Shown here in pieces: positions 37,663 to 43,349 of a stretch of 64,000 nucleotides of DNA (position 1 is the first letter of the stretch; every line of letters begins with the position of its first letter). The notes beneath the pieces are model-generated. The model was not told where the DNA came from, ran no database searches, and saw only the letters and a program-made list of their open reading frames with translations. This DNA is from Oceanicola sp. Lineage in GTDB: Bacteria; Pseudomonadota; Alphaproteobacteria; Rhodobacterales; Rhodobacteraceae. Location of the stretch: NCBI GenBank assembly GCA_017792405.1, contig CP051231.1, positions 3,852,062-3,916,061 on the forward strand, written 5' to 3'. The position numbers and the translations under genes are program-made.

Positions 37663-38355
37663 CTACCCCAGATAGGCCCGCAGCGCCTCGGGCGGATCAT
37701 CCAGCAGCGGGCCGGTCTCGACCGGCGGGGCGGCCTGCCCATCGGCGACCACCACGGTTTGCCCGGCGAAGGCGCGGGCATCGGCGGGGTCGTGGGTGAC
37801 CATCAGCACCGTGGCTCTGGATTCGCCCGCGATTTCCTCTACCAGCGCCAGCATCTCCCGCTTCAGCGCAGGCCCCAGCGCCGCGAAGGGCTCATCGAGC
37901 AGCAGCACCGGGCGGGCGCGCAGCAGGACGCGGGCGAGCGCCACACGGCTGCGCTGGCCGCCGCTCAGCTCCCGTGGGAGCCTTCCGCCCTTGCCGCCCA
38001 GCCCGACGCGGTCCAGCGCCGCCTCGACGCGCTGCAGCTCCTCGGCAGAGAGCCGCAGGTCTGGCCGCAGGCCAAGGCCGGTGTTGCGGGCCACGCTGAG
38101 GTGGCCGAAGAGGTTCTCTTCCTGAAACAGCACGCTGACGGGCCGCGCGCCGGGGGGCAGGGCGCTGATCTCGGCGCCGTCCCAGAGCACCCGGCCCGCC
38201 GCAGGCTCAACGAAGCCCGCGATGCCCATCAGCAGGGTCGATTTGCCCGCGCCGGAGGGGCCGATGACCGCCGCGCGGGCGCCGGGGGGCAAGGCCCAAT
38301 CGGCGGTGAGGGTGAAACTGCCCTGCGTGAGCCGCAGCCCTTCAAGCGCCAGCAT
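37663..38355 (-). CDS. thiQ: Thiamine ABC transporter ATP-binding protein
   Basis: 230 aa. Walker A GPSGAGKST, Q-loop VLFQEENLFGHLSV, signature ELSGGQRSRVALAR, Walker B VLLLDEPFAALG and switch His VTHDPADAR. Short ThiQ length without a regulatory C-terminal domain. Overlaps thiP by 14 nt and ends the riboswitch-controlled operon. Confidence 0.93.
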   Translation of the reverse strand: MLALEGLRLTQGSFTLTADWALPPGARAAVIGPSGAGKSTLLMGIAGFVEPAAGRVLWDGAEISALPPGARPVSVLFQEENLFGHLSVARNTGLGLRPDLRLSAEELQRVEAALDRVGLGGKGGRLPRELSGGQRSRVALARVLLRARPVLLLDEPFAALGPALKREMLALVEEIAGESRATVLMVTHDPADARAFAGQTVVVADGQAAPPVETGPLLDDPPEALRAYLG

Positions 38356-39889
38356 TTGCGCGCCCTCCCCGGTCGAATCCCCAGAACAGGCCCAGCGAAA
38401 GAGCCAGAAGCAGAAGCGCCGCGCCTGCCGCCTGATCGATCCGGTAGGAGGCCATCAGGCGGTAGAGTTGCAGCGGCAGCGTGGCGGTGTCGCCATCGGC
38501 GAAGAGCGCGATAACCCCGAGGTCGCCCATCGAGAGCGCGGCGGCGAGGCCGAGGGCAAAGCCGATGGGGCGGCGCAGCGCGGGGAGGGTGACCAGCCGC
38601 ATCCGCGGCCAGCCACTCATGCCGAGGCTGTCTGCCAGCCGCCCGGAGCCTGCGCGCATCTCGCGGGTAGCGGGCACCAGCGCGGCGAGGGCGAAGGGCA
38701 GGGCCAGCACCGCGTTGACGAGGGCGGTCACCGCCAGCGCGATCTCATCGGGGCGGACCCAGCGGTAGCTGAGGATGAAGAGGCCGGTGCCGATCACGAG
38801 CGGCGAGGCGGCGATGGGCAGCACGCCGACAAGCTGCACCCAGAGCCCGCGCCGGGCGGCGAGCGCCATTGGCAGGGCGAGGGCAAGGCAGAGCGCGGCG
38901 GAGGCGAGGGCCACGAGAAGGGAGCGCAGGGCGGCCCACCAAACGGTGGCGGGCATCTCGGCGAGGCCGGTAATGCCACGCAGACCAACGGCCAGCAGCG
39001 GTGCGAGCAGGAAGAGCGCGGCCAGCGCGATCACCGTGGCATCCTGCAGGCGCAGCCAGCCGCCGCCATCCCACCGGCGCACCACGCCGCCCAGCCCGCC
39101 GGCAAAGACTGCAGGCCGCGCGAGGCCCCACGCTAGGGCGGCGGCGACGCCTGCGAGGGCGAATTGCACGAGGCCGAGCACCGAGGCGGCGCCAAGGTCA
39201 TAGTCGAACCGGAAGGCCTGGTAGATTGCCAGCTCGACGGTGGTGGCGCCCGGCCCGCCGCCCAAGGCCAGCGCCACGGCAAAGCTGGTGAGGCAGAGGG
39301 CGAAGATCAGCAGCCATGCGCCGGGCAGCACGCTGCGGAGCATGGGCCACTCGAGCGCCCTCTGCACCGCGCCTGCCTCCATGCCGAGCGAGGCGGCGAG
39401 GCGGAAGCGTTCGGCCGGGATCGAGAGCCAGCCTTGCAGCACCAACCGCACGGCCAAAGGCAGGTTGAAGAAGACATGGGCCAGAATCACCCCCTGCGGG
39501 CCATAGGGGCTGACCTCGGGCAGACCGAGCGCCCGGAGCGCCACGTTGACCACGCCGGAGCGCCCGAAGACGGCGACGAGGCCCAGCACGGCGACGATGG
39601 TGGGGAGGATGAAGGGGGCGCCCATGAGGGTGATCACCGCCCCCCGGCCACGAAAGCGCCGCCGGGCGAGGGCGCGGGCCACCGGGACGGCGAGAACTAC
39701 GCTGAGGCTGGCCGAAACCACGGCCTGCCAGAGTGTGAACCAGAGCGCATCGCGCGCCGCAGGGCCAACCCCGGCAAAACCCTCGGCCCGCCATGCCACG
39801 GCGGCGAGCGTGCCCAGCGTGACCGCCAGCACGAGCGCCGCCGCGAGCGCGGCGAGGCTGCGGGTTACTGGCTGAGACCCTGCCGCCAC
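38342..39889 (-). CDS. thiP: Thiamine/thiamine pyrophosphate ABC transporter permease
   Basis: 515 aa with two fused BPD-transp-1 units (about 12 helices), each with an EAA loop (ASLGMEAGAVQRALEWPMLRS and DSLGMSGWPRMRLVTLPALR). Fused permeases of this type are typical of ThiP. Overlaps thiB by 25 nt, indicating translational coupling. Confidence 0.93.
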   Translation of the reverse strand: MAAGSQPVTRSLAALAAALVLAVTLGTLAAVAWRAEGFAGVGPAARDALWFTLWQAVVSASLSVVLAVPVARALARRRFRGRGAVITLMGAPFILPTIVAVLGLVAVFGRSGVVNVALRALGLPEVSPYGPQGVILAHVFFNLPLAVRLVLQGWLSIPAERFRLAASLGMEAGAVQRALEWPMLRSVLPGAWLLIFALCLTSFAVALALGGGPGATTVELAIYQAFRFDYDLGAASVLGLVQFALAGVAAALAWGLARPAVFAGGLGGVVRRWDGGGWLRLQDATVIALAALFLLAPLLAVGLRGITGLAEMPATVWWAALRSLLVALASAALCLALALPMALAARRGLWVQLVGVLPIAASPLVIGTGLFILSYRWVRPDEIALAVTALVNAVLALPFALAALVPATREMRAGSGRLADSLGMSGWPRMRLVTLPALRRPIGFALGLAAALSMGDLGVIALFADGDTATLPLQLYRLMASYRIDQAAGAALLLLALSLGLFWGFDRGGRANAGA

Positions 39890-40839
39890 GTTTCGATGGC
39901 CTCATCGCGCATGGCCTCTGCCGTTTTGGCATCGACGTAGAGCGCCTTGTCCGGCACCGGGAGGGTGCGGAAGGTTTCAGGCAGTTTCTCGGCGTCCAGC
40001 TTGGCGGGGAAACTCCAGTTGCCTTCGGGGATCGCCGTCTGGAAACCGTCGCTCAGGATGAAATCCATGAAGCGCTGCGCAAGGTCGGGCTGGTCGGTGC
40101 CGGCAAGCTGGGCGGCCAGTTCGACGTAGAGGTAGTTGCCCTCTTCGAAGATGGCGGCCTTCTTGCTTTCATCGCCCTCGGCCATGATGTGATAGGCGGG
40201 CGAGGTGGTGTAGCTCAGCACCATGTCGGCCTCGCCCTCGGTGAACATGCCGTAGGCCTCGCTCCAGCCCTTGGTGACGGTGAGGATCTTCGGCGCCAGC
40301 CGGGCCCAGGCCCCGCCCGCCTTGTCGCCGTAAAGCTCCTCCACCCACATCACCAGCGCCAGCCCGGCGGCAGAGGCGCGCGGGTCTTGAATGACGATGC
40401 GGGTCTCGTCGGGCATGGCCAGTAGCGCCTCGAAGCTGGTGGGCGGGGTCTCGGTGCGCTGGTCGTAGATGAAGGCGAGGTGGCTCCAGTCGAATGGCAG
40501 GAAGGTGTCATCCTCCCACGAAACCGGCATGGTCAGGGTCGAAACATCCTGCCCGTGGGCGGCGAAGAGGCCGGAGGCGGCGGCGCGGGCCATTTCATCC
40601 TGGCTCAGGCCGATGGCGACATCGGCGTCGCTGCGGGCGCCCTCCAGCAGGATGCGCGGCAGCACGTCGCCGGTGACGAACTCAAGCTCGCAGCTGCACT
40701 CGGCCTCGAAGGCGGTTTTGATCGCGGGGCCGGGGCCCCACTCGCTCGCGAAGTAGTCAGGGGCATAGACCGTCAGGGTTTCCGCCGTCGCCATGTGAGC
40801 GACAAGGGCAAATCCCGCGGCGATGAGGGGGGTCTTCAT
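39865..40839 (-). CDS. thiB: Thiamine-binding periplasmic protein
   Basis: 324 aa with a signal peptide (MKTPLIAAGFALVAHMATA). Class D solute-binding protein: LTVYAPDYFASEWGPGPAIKTAFE, DVAIGLSQDEMARA, TFLPFDWSHLAFIYD, RIVIQDPRASAAGLALVMW and the thiamine-site YTTSPAYHI. First gene behind a TPP riboswitch, which confirms the substrate class. Confidence 0.94.
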   Translation of the reverse strand: MKTPLIAAGFALVAHMATAETLTVYAPDYFASEWGPGPAIKTAFEAECSCELEFVTGDVLPRILLEGARSDADVAIGLSQDEMARAAASGLFAAHGQDVSTLTMPVSWEDDTFLPFDWSHLAFIYDQRTETPPTSFEALLAMPDETRIVIQDPRASAAGLALVMWVEELYGDKAGGAWARLAPKILTVTKGWSEAYGMFTEGEADMVLSYTTSPAYHIMAEGDESKKAAIFEEGNYLYVELAAQLAGTDQPDLAQRFMDFILSDGFQTAIPEGNWSFPAKLDAEKLPETFRTLPVPDKALYVDAKTAEAMRDEAIETWRQGLSQ

Positions 40840-40889
40840 GGGTATCCTCCATTGCATGCGGGCGGAGCGGGCAATCGAGGGGACTCGAA

Positions 40890-40985
40890 ACCTTCCCTCC
40901 GCCGGTTCTAGCCGGTTCAGGTTCGACGGGTTCGCGGGCGCATGGCCGGCATCTCAGCCCCACTGCTGGGGCACCCCGAGGTGAG
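40890..40985 (-). promoter_or_regulatory. TPP (THI element) riboswitch controlling thiBPQ
   Basis: Read on the minus strand, the conserved blocks are all present: GGGGTGCC, then CTGAGATGCCGGCC (the CUGAGA pyrimidine-sensing core), ACCCGTCGAACCTGA (pyrophosphate-sensing arm) and the closing CCGGCGGAGGGA. Its 3' end is about 50 nt before the thiB start, so translational or early transcriptional control is likely. Binding of TPP would switch off thiamine uptake. Confidence 0.96.
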
Positions 40986-41107
40986 GCGCAGCATAGAGCG
41001 GTGCGGTGCAATGGCAAGGAGGTCACAGATGCTGCGCTGCGGCACGCCCGGGTCTTCCCTTTTGATGCGCGCGGCCTAGCATTTGTGACTGTTCAATGGA
41101 GACCGAC

Positions 41108-41866
41108 ATGATCCGCCCAATCGCCCTCGCACTGGCCTGTCTTCTGCCGCTGCCCGCCGCAGCGCAGCAGGCCACTGGCTTTGAGACCTTCGGCCTGACG
41201 CTGGAGGGCGGCGGCCATCCGGCGGGGGATTACCTTGGCCTGACCGGCGAGGCCCGCGCGATCTATGGGCTGGGCTGGGGCGAACTGGCGGTGGATCTCA
41301 CGCTCTCCACCACCGAGGCCGGGTCTGAGAGCCTGACAGCCGCCGGGGTGCTGGTGCATGCCTCGGCGCGGCCCGCAAGCTGGGTGGCGCTTGGCCCCTA
41401 TCTCTGGCTCGGCAGCCAGAACGAGGGTGGCGGTGCCTATGCGCTGGGGGTCGAGGCCGCAGTGCAGACCGCCTCCGGCTGGGGCGGCGAGATGTGGTTT
41501 GGCGAAACCCGGGGCGGCTTGCTGGGCGATGATGGCTATGCCACCAATAAGGGCCTGCGGGTGGGCTACACCGGGCAGGGGCCGGTTACGGCCTATGGCG
41601 CCTTTCTGAAAGACACCGCCAACCTCGCCTCGGGAGATCAGGATTTCTACCGCCTCGCCCTCGGGGTCGACACATGGCTGGAGATGCCCGGCTCGGGGCG
41701 CGAGATACAGCTCTCTGTTGCCGCCGGGCAGCATCATTTCGACCTGCTGGACGAGCGCGAAAACTGGGTTGCGGTGGGCATCACCATTCCGCTCGACGGG
41801 CGGCGTGCGGCGCGGCCTGAGTTCTCCTCACGCCGCGGGGTGCTTCACAACCTTCCGTTGCCGTAA
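41108..41866 (+). CDS. Exported protein, probable outer-membrane barrel, unknown function
   Basis: 252 aa. Signal peptide MIRPIALALACLLPLPAAA then QQATGFETFGLTLEGGG. Glycine-rich alternating strands (YGLGWGELAVDLTLSTT, WVALGPYLWLGSQNEGGGAYALGVEAA in pieces, FYRLALGVDTWLEM, IQLSVAAGQHHFDLL) suggest a porin-like barrel. The C-terminus (RRGVLHNLPLP) lacks the terminal aromatic, so this is not certain. GGAG 7 nt before this ATG decides the start over an ATG four codons upstream. Confidence 0.65.
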   Translation: MIRPIALALACLLPLPAAAQQATGFETFGLTLEGGGHPAGDYLGLTGEARAIYGLGWGELAVDLTLSTTEAGSESLTAAGVLVHASARPASWVALGPYLWLGSQNEGGGAYALGVEAAVQTASGWGGEMWFGETRGGLLGDDGYATNKGLRVGYTGQGPVTAYGAFLKDTANLASGDQDFYRLALGVDTWLEMPGSGREIQLSVAAGQHHFDLLDERENWVAVGITIPLDGRRAARPEFSSRRGVLHNLPLP

Positions 41867-42007
41867 GAAAAATCACTCGCTTTTATAGGGTGTTACCCGA
41901 AGTTAACCCAGCGTAACTCATCTGCAACATTCCCAGAGCCGCGTGCGGATTGGCGCGAAATGCGAAACGGTTCGCGCCGGGTTGTGATATGTTCTCTGAC
42001 ATAACGA

Positions 42008-42240
42008 AGGCGCTCCAAGCGCCTCGCAACGACCAGTGTAGTTACGATGCCCCCATGGTTACCGGGGGTTCGTTGCTGAACTGAATCGGCAGGAGCTCGG
42101 GCCCCCCAATATGCCACCGGGGGCCTCTGAAAGAGCTGGGCGGTGGCATTGTCATCATTGATTGTCCCGGGCTCCTGCCGGTTTGTTTCTCCTTGGCACC
42201 GCGCCGCGCCTTGGGTAACTCCTTGCTGCCAAAGGAGCCC
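42008..42240 (+). ncRNA. Structured leader RNA upstream of aroC (candidate cis-regulatory element)
   Basis: The 380-nt gap before aroC has no gene but a chain of strong inverted repeats: AGGCGCT-CCA-AGCGCCT (42008-42024); GCAACGA/TCGTTGC (42026/42070) enclosing CCCCC/GGGGG; a 15-bp helix 42087-42101 with 42166-42180 (one G-U in RNA) enclosing ATGCCACCG/CGGTGGCAT (42111/42141) and a CTCT/AGAG tip; and CTCCTTGGCA (42189-42198) pairing with TGCCAAAGGAG (42227-42237), which covers the aroC ribosome site. A second CTCCTT at 42219 could compete. Matches none of the riboswitch, 6S, SRP or tmRNA consensus blocks I know. Confidence 0.55.
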
Positions 42241-42245
42241 TGCCC

Positions 42246-43349
42246 ATGAGCCTCAACACATTCGGCCACCTCTTCCGCGTCACCACTTGGGGCGAGAGCC
42301 ACGGGCCTGCCCTTGGCTGCACCGTCGATGGCTGCCCGCCGGGCGTGCCGGTGACAGCGGAGCAGCTGCAGGTCTGGCTCGACAAGCGCAAGCCGGGGCA
42401 GAACAAATACACCACCCAGCGGCGGGAGCCGGATCAGGTGGAGATCCTTTCGGGCGTGTTCGAGGGTGTCACCACTGGGACGCCGGTGCAGTTGATGATC
42501 CGCAACACCGACCAGCGCTCGAAGGACTATGGCGACATTGCCGAGAAGTTCCGGCCGGGCCATGCCGACATCACCTATTGGCAGAAGTACGGGATCAGGG
42601 ACTATCGCGGCGGCGGGCGTTCATCGGCGCGGGAAACCGCGGCACGGGTGGCGGCGGGCGGGCTGGCCCGGAATGCGCTGGCCAAGCTGGCACCCTCGCT
42701 TTCGATCAAGGGGTTCATGGTGAGCATGGGCGACCGCGCCGCCGACCCGGCCCGCTACGACATGGCCCAGATCGACCAGAACCCCTTTTGGACCCCCGAT
42801 GCGCAGGCGGCGGAGGAGTGGGCCGGATACCTCGACGAGCTGCGCAAGAGCGGCAACTCTGTGGGCGCGGTGATCGAGGTTGTGGCCTCGGGCGCGCCTG
42901 CGGGGCTTGGCGCGCCGGTTTATGGCAAGCTCGACACCGACCTTGCCGCCGCGATGATGAGCATCAACGCGGTGAAGGGCGTGGAGATCGGCGATGGTTT
43001 CGCCGCTGCCCGCCTTACTGGTGAGGCCAATGCCGACGAGATCAGTATGAGCCAGGGCGGGGCTGTCTATAGCTCGAACCACGCGGGGGGCATCCTAGGC
43101 GGCATCTCGACCGGGCAGGACATTGTGGTGCGGTTTGCGGTGAAGCCGACCAGCTCGATCCTCAAGCCCCGGCGGACGATCAACACGGCGGGTGAGGAGA
43201 CCGAGATCATCACCAAGGGCCGGCATGACCCCTGCGTGGGCATCCGCGCGGTGCCGGTGGGTGAGGCGATGATGGCCTGCGTGCTGCTCGATCACATCCT
43301 GCTCCACCGCGGGCAGGTGGGCGAAGGATTGCCCGGCAAGATCGGCTGA
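42246..43349 (+). CDS. aroC: Chorismate synthase
   Basis: Converts EPSP to chorismate with reduced FMN, the last common step to aromatic amino acids. 367 aa. Signatures: [24 protein letters not shown], the second motif [21 protein letters not shown] and the third [22 protein letters not shown] 8 nt before ATG, but inside a predicted hairpin of the leader. Confidence 0.97.

Follow-up and report, generated by a model that had tools for sequence, protein, structure and literature searches.

The gene aroC, coding for chorismate synthase, lies on the forward strand of the window, as we call the whole stretch of 64,000 nucleotides that was analysed (Table 1). The gene ahead of it in the same orientation (41096-41866) codes for a fast-diverging protein of 256 amino acids whose start, judged by eye, is like a signal peptide. 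This protein has no Pfam match. Its homologue precedes aroC in all seven genomes of the genus; the remaining aroC loci compared, covering at most 1.5-3 kb to each side, gave no match at E <= 1e-3. Divergent from the aroC side are a TPP riboswitch (40877-40988, minus strand, 67.2 bits), the gene for a solute-binding protein before which it stands (39865-40857, minus strand) and a permease-like gene (38342-39889, minus strand) with a Pfam match below the cut-off. A TPP-like sequence can also be recognised by eye close before aroC in several relatives, e.g. L015, L024 and L026.

Table 1. Features observed or predicted between the upstream gene and the end of aroC (positions in the window)
Feature	Position	Strand	Basis or remark
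Conserved block TTAACNNNNCGTMACNNNNNTGCAACA, possible regulator site	41903..41929	+	about 71-97 nt ahead of the predicted small-RNA start; conserved in the 5 element-bearing genomes
Extended -10 predicted for the small RNA (TGATATGTT)	41985..41993	+	TGnTAT[GT]T[TC] aligned in 5/5 genomes
Predicted small RNA, about 193 nt	42000..42192	+	fold z -5.60, conservation above neutral sites, structure counts; putative ends
Hairpin 1, GGCGCU CCA AGCGCC	42005..42026	+	no pair varies; outermost pair in a gap in 2/5 rows
Hairpin 2, CAGU...CCCC loop GGGG...ACUG	42034..42083	+	3 changes of wobble type; mismatched cells in 2 pairs
Hairpin 3, outer helix, internal loop and 9-pair inner helix	42084..42183	+	changes on both sides in 3 pairs; outer helix with 4 wobble-type changes
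C-rich part of hairpin 3's internal loop, best candidate seed for target pairing	42102..42106	+	putative function
aroC -35 box TTGGCA	42193..42198	+	TTGV-N17-TA in 95/104 distinct family upstreams; overlaps the proposed anti-RBS arm
aroC -10 box TAACTC, last position not T	42216..42221	+	family pattern; promoter class of PMC8407463
5' untranslated region predicted for aroC, about 18 nt; contains AAGGAG (42232-42237)	42228..42245	+	start set 6 bp past the -10
aroC, chorismate synthase	42246..43349	+	PF01264, E 1.2e-136

The sequence before aroC folds far better than chance. The stretch 42000-42260 has a fold z of -4.13 and 42000-42192 alone has one of -5.60; in both cases none of 200 dinucleotide shuffles was as good. 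The arms named in the original prediction could all be located: AGGCGCT/AGCGCCT at 42008-42024, GCAACGA/TCGTTGC at 42026-42076, the long arms at 42084-42110 and 42157-42183 (27 nt, 78% complementary) and those of the inner helix, ATGCCACCG and CGGTGGCAT, at 42111-42149. One of these helices has to be revised. The 7-bp GCAACGA stem is present in the window, but it is not kept in the related genomes G003, G005 and G006, where the fifth base gives an A.G mismatch; in G005 and G006 the third pair fails as well. The consensus fold takes another register at this place, namely the CAGU...ACUG stem of hairpin 2. The outer helix of hairpin 3 has 18 pairs in the window and 19 in the consensus.

This folded element (42000-42192) is present in five of the seven genomes of the genus (G000, G002, G003, G005 and G006). 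G004 is without it, and G001 is unsequenced at this place. Compared to G000, the element is 86.3% identical in G003, 82.1% in G005 and 85.6% in G006. The corresponding values (in the same order) are 58.2%, 59.0% and 58.1% for the four-fold sites of aroC, 69.0%, 65.5% and 69.9% for a stretch of about 480 nt in the upstream gene, and 58.8%, 51.9% and 60.3% for the 130 nt ahead of the element, a stretch that in G005 extends into the end of the gene. A covariance model (R1) was built from the five element sequences; its match to the window sequence, 227 bits, holds by construction, the sequence being part of the model. Under strict filters it matched 2 of 394 genomes of the family, both of the same genus, in a search that scored six candidates per genome in the 22 genomes listed and that weak relatives could escape. 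Apart from the window, 14 selected aroC loci gave no match at E <= 1. A DNA search gave matches in 6 of 61 genomes, all of the same genus, and in G004 the match covers only part 176-251, which holds the aroC promoter. According to the aroC tree G004 stands at a three-way fork, which is compatible with a loss in G004 as well as with a gain after it. In the place of the element G004 (L011) has a short G+C-rich hairpin, seen by eye, directly before a conserved TTTCTCC and the aroC promoter.

Is the structure itself conserved? With 59 pairs, 98.0% of the cells of the alignment are paired, versus 33-45% with slid partners, and mismatched cells occur in 4 of the 59 pairs. Three pairs, all in the long hairpin 3, are changed on both sides; shuffled alignments give 1.1, and 21 out of 500 reach that count. 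The covariation score of the element is reached by 6 of 500 shuffles, and with 10 pair types the element does not exceed shuffles (10.6). All these counts come from five sequences, four of them clearly distinct, and they lean towards the structure, which was derived from the same alignment. The changes on one side of a pair tell us more about the strand. All seven remain paired only by way of G.U on the plus strand, an indication that the RNA is read in the direction of aroC. What is found at 42000-42192 is a conserved RNA structure on one strand.

Substitutions sorted by position modulo three (10/7/6, 8/12/9 and 13/5/9) have no three-base rhythm, the element of G005 and G006 contains insertions or deletions of 1-2 bases, and no plus frame is free of stops in all five sequences. 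Four of five sequences leave minus frame 0 open across the element; it is shifted mid-way in G005 and stopped in G006. Hence the element does not look coding.

Both ends of a transcript can be predicted. A TGnTAT[GT]T[TC] box, which we take to be an extended -10, ends 7 nt ahead of 42000, inside the 130-nt stretch over which G003, G005 and G006 otherwise share 52-60% identity with G000. This predicted promoter was judged by eye and no -35 was recognised. A consensus sigma-70 scan of 41850-42300 found no promoter; it demands a final T in the -10, and the aroC box is therefore invisible to it. At the other end, the tail TGTTTCTCC (42184-42192) comes right after the outer helix of hairpin 3 and is kept in all five genomes, with a single T-to-A change in G003. 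Together, the G+C-rich outer helix and the U-rich tail look like an intrinsic terminator, of a kind that our terminator scan, being limited to loops of 3-8, could not report. Further upstream is the conserved block TTAACNNNNCGTMACNNNNNTGCAACA. Its pattern was built from the five genomes, where exact matches hold by construction; allowing at most two mismatches, four of them have no second place and G003 has one (with two mismatches); the pattern has no place in G004 and in G001 (unsequenced here), and there are two control places. In G003 and G006 (L009 and L012) a TTAA-N7-TTAA stands at or beside this block, and we presume that it resembles a CtrA site.

The sequence that follows the tail most likely belongs to a different unit. 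The promoter pattern of aroC in the window is TTGGCA-N17-TAACTC (42193-42221, plus strand). We compared 109 regions upstream of aroC, that is, 29 loci (L007-L036 without L030, whose orientation was not resolved) and 80 more (L037-L116); with L014 set aside for its unsequenced bases and repeats of the same 100-nt stretch removed, 104 distinct Rhodobacteraceae rows remain. The pattern searched was TTG[ACG]-N16-18-TA ending 12-45 nt ahead of the start codon, and it was fixed after viewing the nearer loci. It occurs in 95 of the 104 rows, always with a 17-nt spacer (95/95), versus 3.5 +/- 1.9 and at most 8 in 100 shuffles; these rows are from related species, many of them Ruegeria, and not independent draws, and the shuffles do not correct for kinship. 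Rows that were uninspected before the pattern was set have it in 70 of 77 cases and previously inspected ones in 25 of 27, while a control stretch 200-300 nt upstream has it in 3 of 102. Among the 95 rows with the pattern, C precedes TTG in 85, and the -10 never ends in T. This agrees with what is reported in PMC8407463 for alphaproteobacteria, where most sigma-70 promoters are without the -7 T (the last -10 position), and where the commonest spacing is 17 bp and the commonest distance between the -10 and the start is 6 bp. As far as that description goes, with a TTG -35, 17-bp spacing and a -10 not ending in T, we see no difference between the aroC promoter and this class. If the 6-bp distance, an assumption taken from PMC8407463, applies here, aroC transcription is predicted to start near 42228, about 18 nt ahead of the ATG. 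The main text of PMC7471390, on start sites of R. sphaeroides, does not name aroC. The region 42228-42280 has no structure beyond chance (z +0.69), so that the aroC leader is predicted to be short and unstructured. G004 keeps the aroC promoter block without the folded element, meaning that the two are separable.

These observations bear directly on the idea, put forward in the original prediction, that the sequence before aroC is a translational riboswitch or a protein-controlled leader hiding AAGGAG. The complementarity on which that idea was based does exist: the arm CTCCTTGGCA at 42189-42198 can pair with TGCCAAAGGAG, and the second CTCCTT, suggested as an alternative partner, is located at 42219-42224. 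However, the minimum-energy fold pairs AAGGAG with this nearer CTCCTT, and the arm CTCCTTGGCA includes the -35 box of aroC. Since the box lies within the arm, the arm should be outside the aroC mRNA; a transcription start downstream of 42200, which had been named as fatal to the leader, is just what the promoter pattern predicts. Neither does the helix behave as a conserved one in the genus. In seven genomes (six distinct rows) none of its ten pairs is changed on both sides, although covariation of the arms had been expected. Of its cells 76.7% are paired, which is above slid partners (30-55%) but equal to the mean of shuffles; five of the six rows have lost the two inner pairs and one keeps them. 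The part that stays constant is mostly, we infer, what a -35 box, a Shine-Dalgarno sequence and a terminator tail would hold constant anyway. At gathering score Rfam has no family for the element, nothing credible appears at E <= 5, and the window matches only TPP (40877-40988, minus strand) and a tRNA. We took a mir-617 match (24.9 bits versus a cut-off of 80) as a chance hairpin match. For 6S RNA (RF00013) the genome has one candidate at E <= 0.001, which lies elsewhere (C1:859718-859875) and whose 42.5 bits are below the cut-off of 46.4. We regard a leader that hides the ribosome-binding site as very improbable. It seems that a -35 box complementary to a ribosome-binding site can mimic such a leader, though it is probably outside the mRNA.

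Several other suggestions can be made regarding the element. It might act as DNA and not as RNA at all, being an inverted repeat, a protein site or a mobile repeat. Its patchy occurrence in the genus, in five of seven genomes and not in G004, would fit this. However, each genome has it at a single place; weak opposite-strand matches (20-31 bits) lie at that same place and are the palindromic hairpin viewed from the other side. The wobble-type changes fit an RNA of the plus strand, and a mobile or phage origin was rejected, since plasmids and phages gave no match and a 21-base pattern had none in viral contigs. We give a DNA-level role hardly any credence. It is easier to imagine that the mRNA of the upstream gene ends in the element, which would be its 3' end and terminator, either released by cleavage or remaining as a stable tail. 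A homologous gene precedes aroC in all seven genomes of the genus, no other terminator was recognised by eye from its stop to the element (the scan gave a weak candidate at 41967-41985), and the short hairpin of G004 occupies the same place. Nevertheless, 133 nt separate the gene stop from the element, the conserved TGnTATKT box and the upstream block precede it, and the upstream gene diverges faster (65.5-69.9% nucleotide identity) than the element does. An RNA derived from a 3' untranslated region is, in our opinion, quite unlikely.

The element could also be one half of a dual unit, with the RNA arising by termination in a long aroC leader and conditional read-through giving a share of the aroC mRNA; the terminator could then be switched by a ligand or a protein. 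Such a case is described for UpsM of Rhodobacter sphaeroides, a 206-nt sRNA that results from termination in the mraZ leader before the dcw cluster, with about one read-through per 100 events (PMC5089854). The likeness is in size, strand and terminator layout: both are structured RNAs of about 200 nt that end, in the case of the element by prediction, at an intrinsic terminator just ahead of a core housekeeping gene. According to the same description (PMC5089854), however, mraZ has no separate start, whereas aroC has a predicted promoter, conserved through the family, past the terminator. G004, moreover, keeps aroC and this promoter without the element. The parts R2-R4 of UpsM are reported to be conserved in Rhodobacteraceae (PMC5089854), whereas the element, compared with them by description, is found in one genus only. 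Read-through into aroC is possible, though it would be unneeded if aroC's own promoter works, and we consider a dual unit of the UpsM kind unlikely.

The element at 42000-42192 is most likely an independent small RNA gene of about 190 nt and not a riboswitch. The original prediction, we suggest, had merged two neighbours on the plus strand, the small RNA and the aroC promoter. Its alternative of a separate small RNA at 42087-42180 is supported as regards a separate RNA but is too narrow in extent, the unit being about 42000-42192 with all three hairpins. Two transcription units would adjoin here. The small RNA would start at about 42000 from the extended -10 promoter and end at about 42190 at its own terminator hairpin; aroC would start from its own, family-wide promoter, whose -35 box begins directly past the terminator tail. 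The terminator would also shield the aroC promoter from upstream transcription. The small RNA itself would most likely act in trans by base pairing. As a whole, this explanation, a trans-acting small RNA next to an aroC gene with its own promoter, appears to us probable. A suspected riboswitch becomes a well-bounded and testable small RNA gene without an Rfam match, and a family-wide promoter is supplied for aroC.

The element is, hence, a new candidate small RNA, restricted to one genus and standing beside an ordinary aroC promoter, whose expression, ends and mode of action we infer. Intergenic trans-encoded sRNAs of comparable size are described for a related marine bacterium, Ruegeria pomeroyi DSS-3, with targets that are only predicted (PMC4809877); they were compared by description, and our covariance model has no match outside the genus in the 394 family genomes. 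The main text of PMC4809877 mentions neither aroC nor chorismate, and a search for papers on small RNAs and aroC in Rhodobacter listed none on this element. A bolder suggestion, and rather an improbable one, would be a novel small-RNA family, confined to this genus, whose transcription and terminator set the firing of the adjoining aroC promoter, by interference or conditional read-through. If correct, this would couple a signal at 41903-41929 to chorismate synthesis, the RNA acting also in trans via its C-rich loop.

What might a trans-acting small RNA use for pairing? Its pairing with the 5' end of aroC is no better than that of shuffles, by a method that ignores accessibility. Two stretches are predicted to be unpaired and are alike in all five genomes. 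One is a run of at least five C within the internal loop of hairpin 3; the other, UCAU, lies across that loop. Unpaired C-rich stretches are favoured as seeds by analogy with other bacterial sRNAs, and the C-rich loop would be a likelier seed than UCAU. The same C-rich stretch could instead pair with the G run at 42119-42125.
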